This document shows, in pieces, positions 1-6,334 of a stretch of 64,000 nt of DNA; the first letter of the stretch is position 1; each line of letters begins with the position of its first letter. The stretch covers positions 4,003,501 to 4,067,500 of the forward strand of contig NZ_BDEL01000001.1 in NCBI RefSeq assembly GCF_001685485.1. Direction: 5' to 3'. This DNA comes from Formosa haliotis (GTDB lineage Bacteria > Bacteroidota > Bacteroidia > Flavobacteriales > Flavobacteriaceae). The notes beneath the pieces were generated by a model that saw only the letters and a program-made list of their open reading frames with translations, was not told the origin of the DNA and searched no databases. The position numbers were made by a program, and so were the translations under genes.

Positions 1-132
1 AGAGCACGAATTCTTAATGATTTGAAACAATGTCAATATAAACAAACAAAGTTCCCAAACGATAGGGTAATAAATGATACTATTAACATTCTGAAATTAG
101 GAAAGTTTGAAAAAAATCATGAAATTCGACGC

Positions 133-501
133 GTGAAAACAGCAACCCTATTTTTAGCATTATTTCTGCTTCTAAAACCACTAATACCTTTAGTGGAATA
201 TGCTGCGTTTTATGATTACATTAAAAACGAACTTTGTGAAAACAAAGAAATTGTTGAAATGAAATGTAATGGAAAATGTTATTTAGCAAAAGAAATGGCT
301 AAAGTTTCAGACACACCAGAGTCTGGAACTAGTGATAAACAAACCGCTTTCGAAACAACGGTTGTGTTTTACCAGAACATTGTAGATACTGTTTTTACTC
401 CTTTATTCTTAGATCTTAATTCAGAAAAAATAGCATCTAATTATAACAGATCTTACGCTTATTTAGATCAAGATGCCGTGTTTCATCCTCCTAAAGCTTA
501 A
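133..501 (+). CDS. small CNGKC-motif protein, function unknown
   Basis: A 122-residue protein with one hydrophobic N-terminal segment (about residues 5-22), followed by a short polar domain containing C35 and a C-N-G-K-C motif (C45, C49), and ending in a conserved-looking FHPP tail. The frame is open to the left window edge. I chose the GTG at 133 because the signal/anchor segment starts there and the upstream translation is charged and unlike a secretion signal; a TTG at 22 or a start outside the window cannot be excluded. I recall similar short flavobacterial proteins with the same CNGKC and FHPP signatures, with no assigned function. It lies just before a copper-uptake cluster, and the spaced cysteines would suit a periplasmic metal or redox role. 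That role is inference. Confidence 0.6.
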   Translation: MKTATLFLALFLLLKPLIPLVEYAAFYDYIKNELCENKEIVEMKCNGKCYLAKEMAKVSDTPESGTSDKQTAFETTVVFYQNIVDTVFTPLFLDLNSEKIASNYNRSYAYLDQDAVFHPPKA

Positions 502-803
502 AACTTCAAGTATTTATAATTATTAAGTTGCCATGTGTTTTTCCGAATTTATCGGTAGCGCGTATTGGCTAAAACTTATATGTTATTACAATACACTTTA
601 AATCAACTTTTATTAAGCATCAATTGTAGTTTTCAAATCATTTACATTTTAAATGTAATGTCTGTTTTACGCTAATTTGTAATGCTTCTTAAAAATGGTT
701 TCCTACAGTCTCATGTAAAACAATGAGGATATTCTAAAGAAAATAATATAGCAATCCACTCGCCAAGGATATTGGGGATATGGGCTAAAAATGTCTTTGC
801 AAA
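502..803. other. gene-free interval, probable promoter region of copper cluster
   Basis: No credible ORF on either strand. The interval separates the CNGKC protein from the lipoprotein at 804 and should hold the promoter of the copper cluster. I see no clean TAnnTTTG element at a sensible distance; TGTCTTTG ends at 799, too close to the ATG at 804 for a normal leader. No clear operator or riboswitch is visible. Confidence 0.4.
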
Positions 804-1727
804 ATGAAGTTTTTAAACGTTCTTTTACCTGCAATTTGTATTGTGATTACCTCGTGTACTATCGCAAAAACAGATTATGAAGCAGAAATAAATAATGAAA
901 CAACAGAATATTTCGAATTCGAAGAAGTCACGCGCACAACAAGCGGCGATTATACCATAAGTATAGAAGCTTTAAACGGTACACTTTATAAGGGCTATAA
1001 CGAAATTCATATAAAAATTTTTAATACCCAAAGTAGTATCGGGTTAGAGCGTGCAGATGTTACGTTTCTTCCCATTTTAACAGATGCTAATGGGAATAAA
1101 AGTTCTTGTCCGCATGATTATAATTTAGAATTTGTGACGGAAGAAGATTATTATTTGGGCTATGCCGTGTTTAGTAGCGAAAGTAATACTACAGTTAATT
1201 GGCAAGCTTATATTGGTTTTCAGGCAGATTCAGAATCCTTTACTATAAATCCGAGTATTACCGTTGAAACACAAACCAATAAGAATTTAAATATGACGGC
1301 TTTTACGGGTAATGATGATGAGCAGTACATTATAGCGCTGGTGTCTCCGCAAAGCCCGAATGTGTCTGAAAACGATTTGGTAGCTGGAATTTACAAGTAT
1401 AATAAGCCAGAGAAACCGGCAGGAAATTTTCCAGATTTGTCGCAATATTCTTATTCCATTGTTAAAGATTATAACTTGTTGTTAGACCCAAGGATGCCAG
1501 AACCTTCAATGGGAAATCATTCTTCGCCTAACAATCAAGATTTAACGCAACAAAATGATAGTTTATACCATGGCGTTGTAAATTATACAATGACAGGAAA
1601 TTGGACTCTGAATTTTATTCTTCACAATGAGAAAGGTAAAATAATAAAGGGAACCGTGGTTCCTACAGATTTTACTCCGGGGATAGAGGGCGTAAAAAGT
1701 GAACTTTTTATAGATATTTTATTCTAA
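804..1727 (+). CDS. lipoprotein of copper-uptake cluster, unknown family
   Basis: A 307-residue exported lipoprotein. The N-terminus is a type II signal peptide with lipobox ITSC and Cys18 as the lipidated residue. The rest looks like beta-rich extracellular or periplasmic domains: segments resembling 'GYNEIHIKIFN' and later 'GNWTLNFILHN' are reminiscent of YtkA/FixH-like beta-sandwich repeats, roughly residues 45-140 and 255-305. A Met/Pro/His-containing linker (about residues 228-240, with 'MPEPSMGNHSS') might bind metal. The stop codon is 4 bp before the start of the TonB receptor, so the two are almost certainly cotranscribed. I infer a surface or periplasmic copper-binding partner of the receptor; the family assignment is tentative. 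Confidence 0.6.
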   Translation: MKFLNVLLPAICIVITSCTIAKTDYEAEINNETTEYFEFEEVTRTTSGDYTISIEALNGTLYKGYNEIHIKIFNTQSSIGLERADVTFLPILTDANGNKSSCPHDYNLEFVTEEDYYLGYAVFSSESNTTVNWQAYIGFQADSESFTINPSITVETQTNKNLNMTAFTGNDDEQYIIALVSPQSPNVSENDLVAGIYKYNKPEKPAGNFPDLSQYSYSIVKDYNLLLDPRMPEPSMGNHSSPNNQDLTQQNDSLYHGVVNYTMTGNWTLNFILHNEKGKIIKGTVVPTDFTPGIEGVKSELFIDILF

Positions 1728-1731
1728 AGAA

Positions 1732-3717
1732 ATGAAACAAATACCCCTAGTTATACTGTTTTTTAGCGTATTAGCATTCGCACAAAATAAACCTGTTGCA
1801 ACCGATAGTCTAGATGTTGTTTTAGATGAGGTTTTAATTATTGCAGCTAAAAAATCTAAAATAGAAACAGATATGAAAATGGCTGTTACTGTTGATGAGT
1901 TTTTAGCGTCGTCCAATAGTATCAGTTTTATTAAACGTGGGGCTTATGCTTGGGAGCCCTTATTGAATAATATGAGTACAGAACGTTCTTCGCTAACCAT
2001 AGACGGGATGCACGTTTTTGGTGCTTGTACAGATAAAATGGATCCTATAACCTCGTATGTAGAAAGTAATAATCTGTCTGAAATTGATATAACATCTGGG
2101 CAGGAGGGTAGTATGCATGGCGCAACAGTGGCAGGAAGTATCGATTTAAAACGTAAAAGTACAGCGTTCGGACTCAGTAAAGCATGGAATGGTGCTTACC
2201 AAACAGGTTTTGAGTTTAATAATAATCAGTTTTTTAACCTCGGAAATGTGTCGTATTCAAGCGATAAACTTGTTGCCGATGCAAGTATGTCTTACAGAAA
2301 AGCAGGAAATTATACCGATGGACATAACGATGAGGTAAAGCATTCGCAATTTACGAAATTCAATACTTCATTGGGCTTGGCGTATAAAACAAGCGATTTG
2401 TCTTCTCTTCGTGTTGATGCTATTTTCGATAAAGCCAAAGATGTGGGGTATCCTGCATTACCTATGGATTTGTCGCTGTCTAGAGCATTAATTACTTCGG
2501 TAGCCTACAAACAGTTTTTTGAAGATAAACTTATAAAAGTATGGGATAGCAAAGTGTATTTTAATGCTGTAGAACATTATATGGACGACACCACAAGGCC
2601 AGAAAATTTAGTGCATATGGATATGCCCGGCTGGAGCACCACTTACGGTTTATTGTCTTCAATTAATTTAAAAACAAAAAACTATGCAGCAGAAATTCAG
2701 GTAAATGCTTACGATAATTTATCTATTGCCGAAATGCGTATGTATCCGCAAGACCGTAGCGAAACCACGATGTTTGCTTATAGTTGGCCTTGGGTTACCA
2801 CGTGTTACGCCGGACTTTCCATGAGTAATACTTTGGATATCTCAGAACGCAGTTTGTTGAGTTTTGGAGGAACTTTAGGGGTAAATTACAATTATTCAAA
2901 ATATATAGAATTCAATTGGATTTTTCACCCTGGAGCACCTCAAGAAAAAACTCGGTTTCTACCAAATGTATATGCGAGCTATCAACTAGAAACAGAACAT
3001 TTTAATGCCTCTGTAGGCGGAGGGTATGGCCATAGAGCGCCTTCAGTTTCCGAAGGTTATGGGTATTATATTTATAACAGTTTTGATAGGTACGATTATA
3101 TAGGAGATCCAGATTTACCCAACGAAATTTCTTATGAAGCGAATGCCAGTGCTGGTATTAAAAACAACAAAGGAGGCATTCAAGCACAGGTAAATTACTT
3201 CTATATTAAGAACTATATCATCGGAAGAATTTTAAGTCAGGGAAGCCCCATGAATTACCAATCGGTTGGTGTTAAAGGGTACACGGCTTTAGAATATGCT
3301 ACCTTATTCAACTTTTCTATAAATGCGAATTATGCCATTTTAAACAACTTACATTGGGATGGTTCCTTAACCTATGCCCGTGGCTTAGATGAAAATGAAA
3401 ATAATTTACCCTTTATTCGTCCCCTTAGCTATCAAACATCATTGCATTTTTCGTATAAAAAATTTGGAGTTTTAACGGCCTTAAATGGCGATTTCGAACA
3501 AGTGAATTATAGCCCAGAATACGGAGAAGACGAAACTCCAGCGTATACCAACTGGAATATTTCAGCAGACTATTCCTTTTATATAAAAGACTATAGAACG
3601 GTAGTTCAAGTTGGCGCAGAAAATATTTTTAACACCTATTACAGTACCTATGCAGACTGGGGGAATATCCCAAGAATGGGACGAAACATTTTTACTTCAT
3701 TAAAAATAAATTTTTAA
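1732..3717 (+). CDS. TonB-dependent copper receptor, OprC/NosA-like
   Basis: An outer-membrane TonB-dependent transporter of 661 residues: signal peptide (1-17, cleavage near AFA-Q), plug domain (about 30-140) and a C-terminal beta-barrel ending in an aromatic residue (KINF). Two features point to copper. In the plug there is C-T-D-K-M at residues 99-103, the CxxxM pattern. In the barrel there is H-Y-M at 282-284, the HxM pattern. In Pseudomonas OprC, a CxxxM/HxM set forms the Cu site, so substrate prediction rests on these four ligands plus context. No carboxypeptidase-like or SusC extension is present. It follows a lipoprotein by 4 bp and precedes MbnP/MbnH-like genes, consistent with one copper-acquisition operon. 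Confidence 0.85.
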   Translation: MKQIPLVILFFSVLAFAQNKPVATDSLDVVLDEVLIIAAKKSKIETDMKMAVTVDEFLASSNSISFIKRGAYAWEPLLNNMSTERSSLTIDGMHVFGACTDKMDPITSYVESNNLSEIDITSGQEGSMHGATVAGSIDLKRKSTAFGLSKAWNGAYQTGFEFNNNQFFNLGNVSYSSDKLVADASMSYRKAGNYTDGHNDEVKHSQFTKFNTSLGLAYKTSDLSSLRVDAIFDKAKDVGYPALPMDLSLSRALITSVAYKQFFEDKLIKVWDSKVYFNAVEHYMDDTTRPENLVHMDMPGWSTTYGLLSSINLKTKNYAAEIQVNAYDNLSIAEMRMYPQDRSETTMFAYSWPWVTTCYAGLSMSNTLDISERSLLSFGGTLGVNYNYSKYIEFNWIFHPGAPQEKTRFLPNVYASYQLETEHFNASVGGGYGHRAPSVSEGYGYYIYNSFDRYDYIGDPDLPNEISYEANASAGIKNNKGGIQAQVNYFYIKNYIIGRILSQGSPMNYQSVGVKGYTALEYATLFNFSINANYAILNNLHWDGSLTYARGLDENENNLPFIRPLSYQTSLHFSYKKFGVLTALNGDFEQVNYSPEYGEDETPAYTNWNISADYSFYIKDYRTVVQVGAENIFNTYYSTYADWGNIPRMGRNIFTSLKINF

Positions 3718-3761
3718 CAATTAACACTAAAATAAAATCTTAACCATTAAATCAAAAAAAA

Positions 3762-4619
3762 ATGAAAAATTTAAAAAAACACCTTTTATTAGCCGTTGTG
3801 GCTTTAGCATTAGTCTCTTGTAACGACGACGATATGCCTGTTGCAAACGATGTAACATTACAATTTAATAATACTTTTTCGGGAGAAACTATAGTACTGG
3901 GCAATGCAACTTCTACATCTGCTACCGTAAACACATCGGTAGAGGGGCAAACACATCATTTTTCTGAATTAAAATACGTTATTAGTAACATTCGTCTTAT
4001 TAAAGCCGATGGTACCGAAATTCCATACCATGTTAATAATTTAGATAATGGAGCAACGATGGTAGATCAGGCAAAATCTGAAACATTACAATATGTTTTA
4101 AACGATATTCCAACGGCAGAATACAGTCAAATTAAATTTGGATTGGGTGTAAAATCTGATTTAAACACCTTAGATCAAGTAAGTTTTCCTGAATTTTATG
4201 CAGCCGCAGGAGCAAACGATACCCAAATGCATTGGGAGTGGGGAACAGGGTACCGTTTTACTAAAATTGAAGGATTTTACAATGAGGAAAACAACGAATT
4301 ATCCTTTCATTCTGGTAGTACTGTAGAAGGTGAAGTAGACGATGAAAGTAGTTATGTACCAGGTTTTGATGCTTACAGAGATATTACATTAAACTTGCCA
4401 ACTAACGCTGTTGTAGGAGAACATGCACCAACAATCCATATAGAAGCAGATTTTGATAATCTATTAAGCGGAAAAACAAACACAATTATTTTAAGCGATA
4501 CTAATGCAACACCAAGTGCGCATACCTCTGTAACTATGTCGGAGTATGTAGACAATATTGGTGGTAATGGCACTAGCGATATTACAGGAATGTTTTCTAT
4601 ACAAAACGTAGAAAACTAA
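3762..4619 (+). CDS. MbnP-like copper-binding lipoprotein
   Basis: A 285-residue lipoprotein with lipobox LVSC (Cys20) and a short Asp-rich spacer. The body matches what I know of the MbnP family: an N-terminal beta strand LQFNNTF, 'FSELKYVISNIRL' around residues 67-79, and the family signature with two Trp near M156-H157-W158-E-W160-GTGYRF. In Methylosinus, MbnP carries a Trp that MbnH oxidises to kynurenine, creating a Cu(I) site; W158 or W160 are candidates for the same modification here. Surrounding His residues (H65, H66, H157, H183, H221, H226) are available as ligands. The gene sits 44 bp after the receptor and is followed by an intrinsic terminator and an MbnH-like gene. Confidence 0.82.
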   Translation: MKNLKKHLLLAVVALALVSCNDDDMPVANDVTLQFNNTFSGETIVLGNATSTSATVNTSVEGQTHHFSELKYVISNIRLIKADGTEIPYHVNNLDNGATMVDQAKSETLQYVLNDIPTAEYSQIKFGLGVKSDLNTLDQVSFPEFYAAAGANDTQMHWEWGTGYRFTKIEGFYNEENNELSFHSGSTVEGEVDDESSYVPGFDAYRDITLNLPTNAVVGEHAPTIHIEADFDNLLSGKTNTIILSDTNATPSAHTSVTMSEYVDNIGGNGTSDITGMFSIQNVEN

Positions 4620-4631
4620 ATCTTAAATATT

Positions 4632-4668
4632 TCGGTCGGTTAGGTAATACCACTTGGCCGACTTTTTT
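4632..4668 (+). terminator. terminator after mbnP-like gene
   Basis: GTCGG at 4635-4639 pairs with CCGAC at 4658-4662, followed immediately by seven T. It lies between the MbnP-like and MbnH-like genes, so the latter may be expressed at a lower level by read-through or from its own promoter. Confidence 0.6.
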
Positions 4669-4697
4669 TAATAATTGTAAACCATACTTGTTGCCTT

Positions 4698-5717
4698 ATG
4701 AAACTATGCTTTAGAATATTCGCATTAGCTTTGGTGTTAACCGCTTGTAGTCAGGATGATTCCGATACCGTTTCTTATATTAATCCAGAACTCACATTAG
4801 ATATTCCGATGGGTTTTCCAGAGTTTAATACTTCGGTATATACCAATAAACCAACTGAATATGGTGTGGTTTTGGGAGAAAGATTATTTAACGAAAAGAA
4901 ATTGAGTGCAGATAATACCGTGTCGTGTTCTAGTTGCCACATACAGGAAAGTGCGTTCGCAGATCATAACCCAAAAGGAATTGGTATAGAAGGCAGAATC
5001 GGACTCCGAAATGCACCGGCTATACAAAATATGGCTTTTATGCAGGTCTTTAATTGGGATGGTAATAAGCGTGTTTTAGAGAGTCAGCCGTTGGTTCCAA
5101 TTATTACACATGAAGAAATGGATTCCTCTATTCTTGAAGTTATAGAAAAGCTTGAAGCCGATGGTTCTTATGTAGATTTGTTTAATAAAGCTTTTAATGG
5201 TGAAGGTATAACTGCTAACGGCATTTATAATAGTATTGCGCAGTTTGAATATACTTTAATATCGGCAAACAGTAAGTACGATAAAATGAAGCGCGGAGAA
5301 GGAGAAACCTTTACAACTGAAGAAGCACAGGGGTATGCTGTTTTTCAGAAGAAATGTATTAGTTGCCATAGTACAGGATTATTTACCGACCAAAGTTTTA
5401 GAAATATAGGATTTCCTTTAAATCCAGATCCTGAAGAAGCTGGGAGAGCTAGAGTTACAGGGAAAGTTGAGGACTTTATGCGTTTTCGTGTTCCATCGTT
5501 ACGCAATATTGCTTATACAGCTCCGTATGGTAGCTTTGGACAATTTGAAACGTTAAAAGCAGTTTTAGATTATTTGGATGCCGGTGTTTTAGAAGCCGAT
5601 AATCTAGATCCTATTTTAAAAGAAAATGGAAATAGTATTCCACTTTCCGAAACCGAAAAAGAGAATCTTATTGCCTTTATGAATACCTTAAGCGATGTTG
5701 ATTTTGTAAGCCCTTAA
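4698..5717 (+). CDS. MbnH-like diheme cytochrome c peroxidase family protein
   Basis: A 339-residue exported protein of the bacterial cytochrome c peroxidase/MauG superfamily. The signal peptide ends in lipobox LTAC (Cys17). Two c-type heme motifs are visible: CSSCH at residues 77-81 and CISCH at 220-224. 'GLRNAPAIQN' after the first heme and 'FRVPSLRNIAYTAPYG' after the second are classic superfamily segments. Its position directly after an MbnP-like gene identifies it as the probable MbnH partner, which in methanotrophs forms a high-valent diiron-heme state and converts a Trp of MbnP into kynurenine. Plain CcpA-type peroxidase activity is the main alternative; the neighbour argues against it. 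Confidence 0.85.
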   Translation: MKLCFRIFALALVLTACSQDDSDTVSYINPELTLDIPMGFPEFNTSVYTNKPTEYGVVLGERLFNEKKLSADNTVSCSSCHIQESAFADHNPKGIGIEGRIGLRNAPAIQNMAFMQVFNWDGNKRVLESQPLVPIITHEEMDSSILEVIEKLEADGSYVDLFNKAFNGEGITANGIYNSIAQFEYTLISANSKYDKMKRGEGETFTTEEAQGYAVFQKKCISCHSTGLFTDQSFRNIGFPLNPDPEEAGRARVTGKVEDFMRFRVPSLRNIAYTAPYGSFGQFETLKAVLDYLDAGVLEADNLDPILKENGNSIPLSETEKENLIAFMNTLSDVDFVSP

Positions 5718-5774: not shown

Positions 5775-6098
5775 TTAATCAACAAAAGTTTCTTTCATTA
5801 TTGATTTTAGTTCCTTTATCTCGGGATTAGTCATTTTTCCTAAACGTTTCACAATTCTTAATTTATCAACAGTTCTAATTTGGTCGATAACTATCCAGCC
5901 AATTTGATTATTGTGTTTTATTTCTATTCTTGTAGGATAATTTATAGAACTTGTAGTCATTGGTGCAACAATAATAGTCTTTAAAAATTTATTCATTTCG
6001 TTTGGTGAAATAATTACACAAGGGCGTGATTTATTGATTTTACTTCCAACGGTGGGATTAAGATTAATTAGGACTATATCGTATTGTTTTAATTCCAT
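5775..6098 (-). CDS. MazF/PemK-type endoribonuclease toxin
   Basis: A 107-residue protein with the MazF/PemK fold signature: the N-terminal 'YDIVLINLNPTVGSKINKSRP' strand-loop, 'RPCVIIS' with the conserved Arg (about residue 25), the 'IVAPMTTS' segment (about 42-49) and 'DQIRTVDK' (about 72-79). The family cleaves single-stranded RNA at short sites and arrests growth. The start codon overlaps the 3' end of the upstream antitoxin gene by 10 bp, the usual coupled arrangement. Length is normal for the family. No frameshift or missing key residue is seen, so it is probably active and held in check by the antitoxin. Confidence 0.85.
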   Translation of the reverse strand: MELKQYDIVLINLNPTVGSKINKSRPCVIISPNEMNKFLKTIIVAPMTTSSINYPTRIEIKHNNQIGWIVIDQIRTVDKLRIVKRLGKMTNPEIKELKSIMKETFVD

Positions 6099-6334
6099 TC
6101 TTCAAAGGTTTCATCTTCAAAGACATCATTAAACAACAACTTATCATCTCCATTTTCGGTCATTTGTTTAAAAGATTCTTCCCACCCTTTTCTAGGAGTT
6201 GATATGGGTTGAATTATGATTTTTCCTTTTTCAAGAATTAATTCTACTTTATCCTTTATATTGTATTTTTCAAGTATAGTTTTACTAAAACGTATGCCCT
6301 TTGAATTTCCTATTTGTATGACTGAAACTTCCAT
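6089..6334 (-). CDS. MazE-type AbrB-fold antitoxin
   Basis: An 81-residue antitoxin. Residues 1-45 form a SpoVT/AbrB (MazE) swapped-hairpin DNA-binding domain: 'IQIGNSKGIRFSKTILEKYNI' followed by 'VELILEKGKIIIQP'. The acidic C-terminal tail (about 50-81, ending near DETFEEW) is the expected toxin-binding segment. It precedes and overlaps the toxin gene, so antitoxin is made first, and the DNA-binding domain would autoregulate the pair from the promoter just upstream (about 6335-6400). No transposase or integration site is visible beside it, but such modules are commonly acquired horizontally. Confidence 0.83.
   Translation of the reverse strand: MEVSVIQIGNSKGIRFSKTILEKYNIKDKVELILEKGKIIIQPISTPRKGWEESFKQMTENGDDKLLFNDVFEDETFEEWN

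Follow-up and report, generated by a model that had tools for sequence, protein, structure and literature searches.

A small protein with a three-cysteine module and a terminal Pro-Pro heads a copper-acquisition operon of Formosa haliotis and is a candidate nascent-chain copper sensor

Overview of the copper locus

A 64,000-nucleotide (nt) stretch of the Formosa haliotis genome (the window, positions 1-64,000) carries, near its start and on the + strand, a five-gene copper locus (133-5717) composed of open reading frame 1 (ORF1), a YtkA-like lipoprotein, an OprC-type TonB-dependent receptor, MbnP, and the diheme protein MbnH. The locus is probably a copper-acquisition operon that is switched by its own first gene product. 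Comparison across genomes shows ORF1, the most informative part of the locus, to be a conserved small head-of-operon protein whose three-cysteine module lies at a near-fixed distance from a terminal Pro-Pro (PP). Judged from its sequence, ORF1 has the anatomy of the nascent-chain copper regulators CruR and CutF, with a different arrest motif and without a DUF2946 match. Comparison likewise establishes the conserved copper ligands of the downstream proteins, and from both sets of features we infer the steps of regulation.

A sequence-only reading of this DNA had described a four-gene cluster at 804-5717, taken as a copper operon around an MbnP/MbnH pair without methanobactin genes, and is partly supported. 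The four ORFs stand at the coordinates and on the strand that it gave, separated by short gaps: 804-1727 (307 amino acids, aa), 1732-3717 (661 aa), 3762-4619 (285 aa), and 4698-5717 (339 aa). Family, fold, and ligand conservation agree with a copper operon containing such a pair, but its start had been missed, since the head ORF lies further upstream at 133-501. The claimed lack of methanobactin genes holds for MbnB and MbnC, neither of which has a match at E≤1 in the whole single-contig genome of 4,305,801 bases; mbnA was not searched. Sequence and fold comparisons together support a copper-acquisition operon with an MbnP/MbnH pair and without MbnB/MbnC.

ORF1 combines an invariant cysteine module with a terminal Pro-Pro

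The features of ORF1 and of the gap behind it are as follows.

133-501, + strand: ORF1, 122 aa, with C35-x9-CxGxC (C45, G47, C49) and the end ...FHPPKA-stop; candidate nascent-chain copper sensor
235-279, + strand: codons of C35, C45, and C49 of ORF1 (first Cys 235-237; CxGxC 265-279), invariant in 102/102 aligned same-family relatives
487-501, + strand: Pro-Pro codons (487-492), Lys, Ala, and stop; proposed arrest site, with PP kept outside the family
502-803, + strand: ORF1-lipoprotein gap, 302 nt; proposed region of the regulatory decision

The frame of ORF1 is open back to a TTG at 22 (listed as 22-501), and the GTG at 133 was chosen as the start from the starts of relatives. The protein has a hydrophobic N-terminus, the look of which suggests that it is probably exported, followed by the cysteine module with its CxGxC reading CNGKC, a loosely conserved middle, and PP at residues 119-120. 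Across the 102 same-family relatives, C35, C45, G47, and C49 are all invariant. The distance from CxGxC to PP is 67.6 ± 2.2 residues (63-73, n=100), spanning a middle region with a mean top-residue share of 0.24 vs 0.66 in the cysteine module. In 97/100 relatives, PP is preceded by H, K, P, R, or Q. The length before the first Cys (standard deviation 10.9) carries no weight here, because the mechanical choice of starts widens its spread.

ORF1 relatives are present in 116/199 genomes of the taxonomic family (15-sequence profile) and, with a profile of the N-terminal half alone, in 137/395 genomes of the phylum, 102 of these 137 lying outside the family. Loci outside the family that were found with the N-terminal-only profile provide the fair test of the C-terminus. 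In two hand-chosen sets of such loci, one of 40 loci from 39 genomes with mostly stronger matches and one of 20 weaker matches, PP occurs within the last 12 residues of 41/41 relatives vs 4/288 other ORFs and of 19/20 relatives vs 1/123 other ORFs, respectively, giving 60/61 vs 5/411 when pooled. The weaker set shows a looser cysteine spacing, with 8-10 residues before CxxxC in 15/20.

Within the family, PP lies near the end of 100/102 relatives, vs 1/286 downstream genes and 27/1588 other ORFs of at least 60 residues; this set was found with the full profile, including its PP columns, and 43 of the 102 relatives come from loci chosen for holding MbnP, so that MbnP as their neighbor (27/43) is given by construction. 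In a further set of 106 relatives, found by peptide patterns of the cysteine module and sharing some contigs with the other set, the cysteine count of 106/106 is by construction and PP lies near the end in 104/106.

No same-family relative matches DUF2946 (PF11162) at E≤0.01 (0/102), and stray, weak Pfam matches occur in two of them. A few Bacteroidota genomes do encode genuine DUF2946-type small proteins (L236, L237, L239), separate from ORF1, which carry CxxC and end in RGPP or RAPP; PF11162 matches 5/148 genomes of the phylum (2 over the cut-off), and the genome of the window is not among them.

ORF1 precedes different downstream systems

The gene after ORF1 lies on the same strand in 100/100 same-family cases, in 39/41 and 19/20 relatives of the two outside-family sets, and in 106/106 of the set found by cysteine patterns. 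The gap after ORF1 is long, with a median of 103 nt vs 44 nt between the next two genes (n=141 and 117; Mann-Whitney p 8e-16). In the 106-relative set, which was chosen by ORF1 alone, the next gene encodes a YtkA-like protein (45 cases), MbnP (37), an OprC-like receptor (7), a second ORF1 (2), or another protein (15). Behind the other 59 of the 102 same-family relatives, chosen as ORF1 matches away from MbnP, we found 25 OprC-like receptors, 12 YtkA-like proteins, 11 other proteins of at least 750 residues, and 9 others, with no gene in reach in 2.

ORF1 is also followed by a second receptor type, behind which PepSY_TM was found in 4/6 second genes tested (L063, L072, L119, L142); the remaining two encode a BNR-repeat protein. 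Directly after one ORF1 relative comes cytochrome bd oxidase subunit I (L073:1349-2728), an arrangement to be expected if ORF1 switched the cell to an oxidase without copper, cytochrome bd being one. Proteins of 339-340 residues follow ORF1 in eight loci (L062, L068, L069, L070, L074, L086, L130, L271), and scanning five of them gave weak matches to PF13557 (Phenol_MetA_deg) in L068, L074, and L130 and no Pfam family in L062 and L086.

The five-gene order with ORF1 in front is present in 9/20 loci examined (L034-L042), which were selected by MbnP score and not at random. Two more of these loci (L043, L050) have ORF1 directly before mbnP, and the remaining nine comprise six with MbnP and MbnH and no ORF1 match and three without an MbnP match in that scan. 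ORF1 can also lie inside the operon, between receptor and mbnP (L158-L161, L163, L165, L176, L184, L243, L244, L246-L249), where the window has none; these are Winogradskyella loci, one Flavobacterium locus (L176), and six loci of genus g127. A second locus of the same genome (G000:C1:2963449-2970436, L064) has the order ORF1-YtkA-OprC-like receptor, without MbnP/MbnH.

The same features could describe a small membrane-anchored or periplasmic Cu(I) chaperone that acts in trans with the receptor, its PP being a structural or sorting feature. Three invariant cysteines and a hydrophobic N-terminus would suit such a chaperone, and co-location with copper genes would be equally expected of it. A chaperone, however, need not head the operon, end in PP near the stop, or hold a fixed CxGxC-PP distance across an unconserved middle; moreover, ORF1 is shared by different downstream systems (TonB receptors, MbnP, one cytochrome bd), and a further copy stands immediately ahead of mbnP in some operons. 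We regard this explanation as unlikely.

Still less probable is control by an ordinary transcription factor encoded elsewhere, which would make ORF1 an unrelated short gene. An AraC-type regulator (L042:5709-6581, - strand) is located between two ORF1 copies, and ORFs of 285-288 residues occupy the same place in L180, L181, L192, L200, and L201, which would fit such control. ORF1, however, heads copper genes in many genomes, lying within 8 kb upstream and on the same strand of at least 38/110 MbnP matches and downstream of 0 among the matches listed.

Copper ligands are conserved in the lipoprotein and receptor

804-1727, + strand: YtkA-like lipoprotein, probable copper chaperone, with lipobox Cys18 and PF13115 at E 0.0018, under the cut-off
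1732-3717, + strand: OprC-type TonB-dependent copper receptor, from TIGR01778, the OprC match, and kept ligands
2026-2040, + strand: codons of C99xxxM103 (OprC C143xxxM147), from alignment to 6fok and conservation
2575-2583, + strand: codons of H282xM284 (OprC H323xM325), from alignment to 6fok and conservation

The lipoprotein carries a Met/His motif composed of M231 (82/82), M236 (81/82), H239 (82/82), and M263 (82/82). For the receptor, the best NCBIfam model is TIGR01778, "TonB-dependent copper receptor", at 71.6 bits and under its cut-off of 472.45. Compared with OprC of Pseudomonas aeruginosa (6fok), the receptor is alike in its CxxxM-HxM ligands at aligned places, corresponding to the copper ligands named in the OprC report (PMC8610252), and unlike in its weak overall sequence similarity in the PDB search (E 9.9e-10) and in its length of 661 vs 723 residues. 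Among 58 receptors matching that of the window by sequence, the ligand columns are nearly or fully invariant: C99 in 55/58 and M103, H282, and M284 each in 58/58.

MbnP and MbnH form a divergent pair

3762-4619, + strand: MbnP lipoprotein, PF20243 at E 2.9e-37, 128.9 bits vs a cut-off of 27
4233-4235, + strand: W158 of MbnP, from conservation
4239-4241, + strand: W160 of MbnP, from conservation
4308-4310, + strand: H183 of MbnP, from conservation
3954-3959, + strand: clade-specific H65/H66 of MbnP, from conservation; H254 is a further His of MbnP
4634-4663, + strand: hairpin resembling a terminator, with a T-run, in the mbnP-mbnH gap; it may lower mbnH output
4698-5717, + strand: MbnH diheme protein of the Tyr-less (GSFG) clade, with heme motifs at residues 77-81 and 220-224, W120, and E140
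5529-5576, + strand: G278-S-F-G281 through Y292-L293 of MbnH, the replaced MHDG...Y heme-ligand region, from an alignment of 95 sequences

The family assignment of the MbnP-like gene stands with PF20243, over its cut-off, and falls short with NCBIfam TIGR04052 (56.1 bits, under the cut-off of 140). A PDB search with the single sequence returned nothing and one with the MbnP profile returned 7l6g at E 1e-4. MbnP 7l6g is also the sole strong PDB fold match of the MbnP model (predicted local distance difference test score, pLDDT, 87), the Foldseek matches below it being weak, with E above 0.01. The two tryptophans lie where the sequence-only reading had placed them, W158 and W160 being present in 10/10 clade members and each in 45/46 others, and H183 is kept in 56/56. 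Clade members carry an additional His pair, H65 (10/10) and H66 (9/10), and both His recur in nine further partners. Compared with MbnP of Methylosinus trichosporium (7l6g), the MbnP of the window is unlike in being a lipoprotein, in the extra H65/H66, and in having the lipobox C20 as its only Cys, so that the four-Cys motif in the PDB name of 7l6g is absent.

The hairpin between mbnP and mbnH was rejected as a feature shared by five-gene operons, because a strict search of eight of the nine other such loci (all but L040, gap 20 nt) gave none. Hairpins at this position are also seen in ten further MbnPH loci that are not of the five-gene type and perhaps set the substrate:enzyme ratio.

The diheme protein matches PF03150 (E 8.2e-47), and its best NCBIfam model is TIGR04039, "MbnH family di-heme enzyme", at 199.1 bits and under the cut-off of 362.85. 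This model is not specific, as it also matches a second protein of the genome (179.6 bits) and gives matches in E. coli and Methanosarcina, its matches to ordinary diheme proteins being weak. The second diheme protein (G000:C1:1728591-1729484; L003, L242) matches TIGR04039 at E 1.1e-52, and its frame contains one stop. The sequence-only reading had held that grouping with ordinary peroxidases would speak against it, and on this point the evidence divides. By fold, the MbnH model (pLDDT 91) is best matched by MbnH 6e1c (template modeling, TM, score 0.83; E 9.2e-22), with peroxidase 9qdt next (E 5.0e-21); by sequence, ordinary peroxidases rank slightly above 6e1c (E 5.3e-37 vs 5.1e-32), and the axial Tyr is gone.

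Alignment of 95 MbnH sequences, in which some species may appear twice, revealed two groups. In 76/95, MHDG or THDG precedes a Tyr at the alignment column occupied by Tyr in 6e1c and by Met in peroxidase 1iqc. The other 19, close relatives of the MbnH of the window, have GSFG, Leu or Phe in the Tyr column (293), and a Tyr one residue before. The axial heme ligand Tyr (Tyr294 of MauG) is conserved in MauGs, with Met or His in peroxidases (PMC7567364), and Met280 is given as the peroxidase ligand elsewhere (PMC10094543). The ten five-gene MbnH sequences included in our tree form one clade (100/100 support) on a stem of 1.26 changes per column; nine found later were left out. The Tyr-less MbnH retains both heme motifs, W120, and E140. 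As the alignments of both partners indicate, the MbnP and MbnH of this clade changed together. Compared with MbnH of Methylosinus (6e1c) and MauG, the protein of the window is alike in fold, two CXXCH motifs, the inter-heme Trp, and the Glu, and unlike in the axial-ligand column, which lacks Tyr, and in the missing MHDG. Since this clade is without the axial Tyr, the published MbnP/MbnH kynurenine chemistry cannot simply be carried over.

MbnH of the Tyr-less clade may, rather than a tryptophan oxidase, be a peroxidase or electron-transfer partner, with MbnP binding copper by its own His (H65/H66, H183, H254) and without kynurenine; we hold this to be a distinct possibility, though more doubtful than probable. 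The replacement of MHDG and Tyr by GSFG and Leu/Phe in 19/19 clade members, the long and fully supported stem of the ten tree sequences, the H65/H66 pair of the partner MbnPs, and the ranking of peroxidases over 6e1c in the plain sequence search would all fit it. The retention of WxW and H183 in the partner MbnPs, and of both heme motifs, W120, and E140 in the clade, speaks against it, as does Tyr292, which is one residue off, invariant in the clade (19/19), and might serve as ligand.

A proposed nascent-chain switch

In the proposed mechanism, ORF1 would be exported while it is being translated. When the ribosome pauses at Pro-Pro, the cysteines, about 68 residues ahead in the chain, would already have emerged from it and might extend to the translocon or periplasm. 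The ribosome exit tunnel spans 30-40 residues, and a chain crossing the translocon reaches its far side at about 65 residues; a tether of 68 residues, longer than the tunnel and near the translocon-crossing length, would therefore fit a periplasmic sensor. At low copper, the paused ribosome would keep the long gap open to transcription or translation of the uptake genes. Cu(I) binding to C-x9-CxGxC would change the folding or pull of the chain, free the ribosome, and turn the operon down, which is the direction of CruR; ORF1 should act in this direction because it heads uptake genes, and it has parts of both CruR and CutF. Of the proteins thereby controlled, the OprC-type receptor would move copper ions through the outer membrane, to be taken over by the YtkA-like lipoprotein and MbnP, and MbnH would oxidize a WxW tryptophan of MbnP, completing its Cu(I) site. 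This last step is the least sure, because the MbnH clade is without the axial Tyr.

The gap itself was examined for a regulatory structure. Twelve relatives of 502-803 align at a mean column identity of 48%, with only an A-rich stretch before the next gene conserved, and a conserved RNA structure was accordingly rejected. The gap folds at z -1.65, with 5/100 shuffles as low, and no Rfam family reaches its gathering score there. A CutF-like stem-loop is not supported, given the lack of a conserved block, the weak fold score, and the missing Rfam match.

Several observations weigh against the proposed switch. The gap, unconserved and without clear structure, offers no visible route from a pause to the downstream genes, and the Bacteroidetes promoter motif TAnnTTTG is absent from window positions 1-830. 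Export of ORF1 is judged solely by the look of its N-terminus, and arrest strength cannot be assumed, because the motif is mostly [HKRPQ]PP and not RAPP/RGPP. One of the 20 weak-set relatives is followed by an opposite-strand gene. The copper link is not seen for every ORF1, the next gene being of another kind in 15/106 and 9/59 relatives, besides the 11 receptors or other proteins of at least 750 residues in the latter set. The missing axial Tyr speaks against plain MauG/MbnH chemistry, and copper response, stalling, copper binding, and kynurenine are predictions.

Beyond the window, much of Bacteroidota copper acquisition may be under separate nascent-chain sensors, with C-x9-CxGxC and xPP about 68 residues apart, the sensor of the window controlling an MbnP/MbnH pair that has lost the axial Tyr of MauG enzymes and has another ligand set on both partners. 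We put this forward as a serious conjecture that falls somewhat short of being probable. At a spacing of about 68 residues, the cysteines would come to lie beyond the translocon during the ribosomal pause, and translation itself would read periplasmic copper.

Neighboring genes

Upstream of the window edge lies an opposite-strand gene of flavodoxin type (L241), and ORF1 is the one + strand ORF separating it from the lipoprotein gene. Directly downstream and convergent with the operon, a MazF/PemK-like toxin and a MazE-like antitoxin occupy window positions 5775-6334 (- strand).

Comparison with known systems

We know of no well-described copper sensor for uptake genes in this phylum. Among the literature matches listed, no title or abstract concerns the ORF1 family, its spacing rule, or the Tyr-less MbnH clade, subscription papers lying mostly outside the scope of the search. 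The Tyr-less clade constitutes a natural experiment on which heme ligand the Trp-to-kynurenine chemistry needs.

An MbnP/MbnH pair without methanobactin genes is already known and not new: the pair is conserved far beyond methanobactin producers (PMC3621798), and MbnPH-like genes are listed in cruR operons (PMC9426467). The general idea of such a sensor likewise has known precedents in CutF-like Bacteroidota proteins and in terminal-proline upstream ORFs (uORFs) before sec genes. The uORFs of Bacteroidota secA/secDF (PMC10987492) are unlike ORF1 in having a single Pro before the stop (NSP-stop, NAP-stop) and in being followed by protein-export genes. A 2025 survey of RAPP/RGPP arrest peptides reports copper-factor uORFs in a range of lineages, Bacillota and Bacteroidota being among the exceptions, and a TonB-related class throughout Gram-negatives (PMC12992588). 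Most ORF1 members use other residues before PP and would thus be missed by a RAPP/RGPP search, which makes the question experimentally testable.

CutF combines CxxxC with a proline-rich end, requires co-translational export, and lets copper switch the next gene on, stalling not being shown directly (PMC9973294). By several of the broad CutF-like criteria of the same paper, ORF1 resembles these proteins: it has a CxxxC (CNGKC), fewer than 150 residues (122 aa), PP within the last 15 (119-120), and a same-strand gene less than 1000 nt away (gap 302 nt), and its hydrophobic N-terminus may be a signal peptide. List D of CutF-like proteins in that paper is 19% Bacteroidota (40% after normalizing), with TonB-like proteins among the frequent neighbors. 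ORF1 is unlike CutF, whose stem-loop gap lets copper turn on a multicopper oxidase, in that it precedes uptake genes and its long gap has no conserved structure.

In CruR, copper relieves translation arrest, upon which Rho ends transcription before the receptor gene (PMC9426467), and the arrest was seen in vitro (PMC12992588). CruR (DUF2946; Bordetella pertussis cruR-bfrG/crtA-bp2921; PMC9426467, PMC12914433) resembles ORF1 in being a small head protein with a Cys metal motif and a terminal PP, in its conserved motif spacing and long gap, and in the TonB copper receptor behind it. ORF1 differs from CruR in its cysteine motif (C-x9-CxGxC vs CXXC), in its terminal motif (mostly [HKRPQ]PP vs RAPP), and in the spacing between them (about 68 vs 45 residues). 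The gene order of Bordetella cruR-crtA-bp2921 (PMC12914433) matches the receptor-PepSY_TM order found behind some Bacteroidota ORF1.

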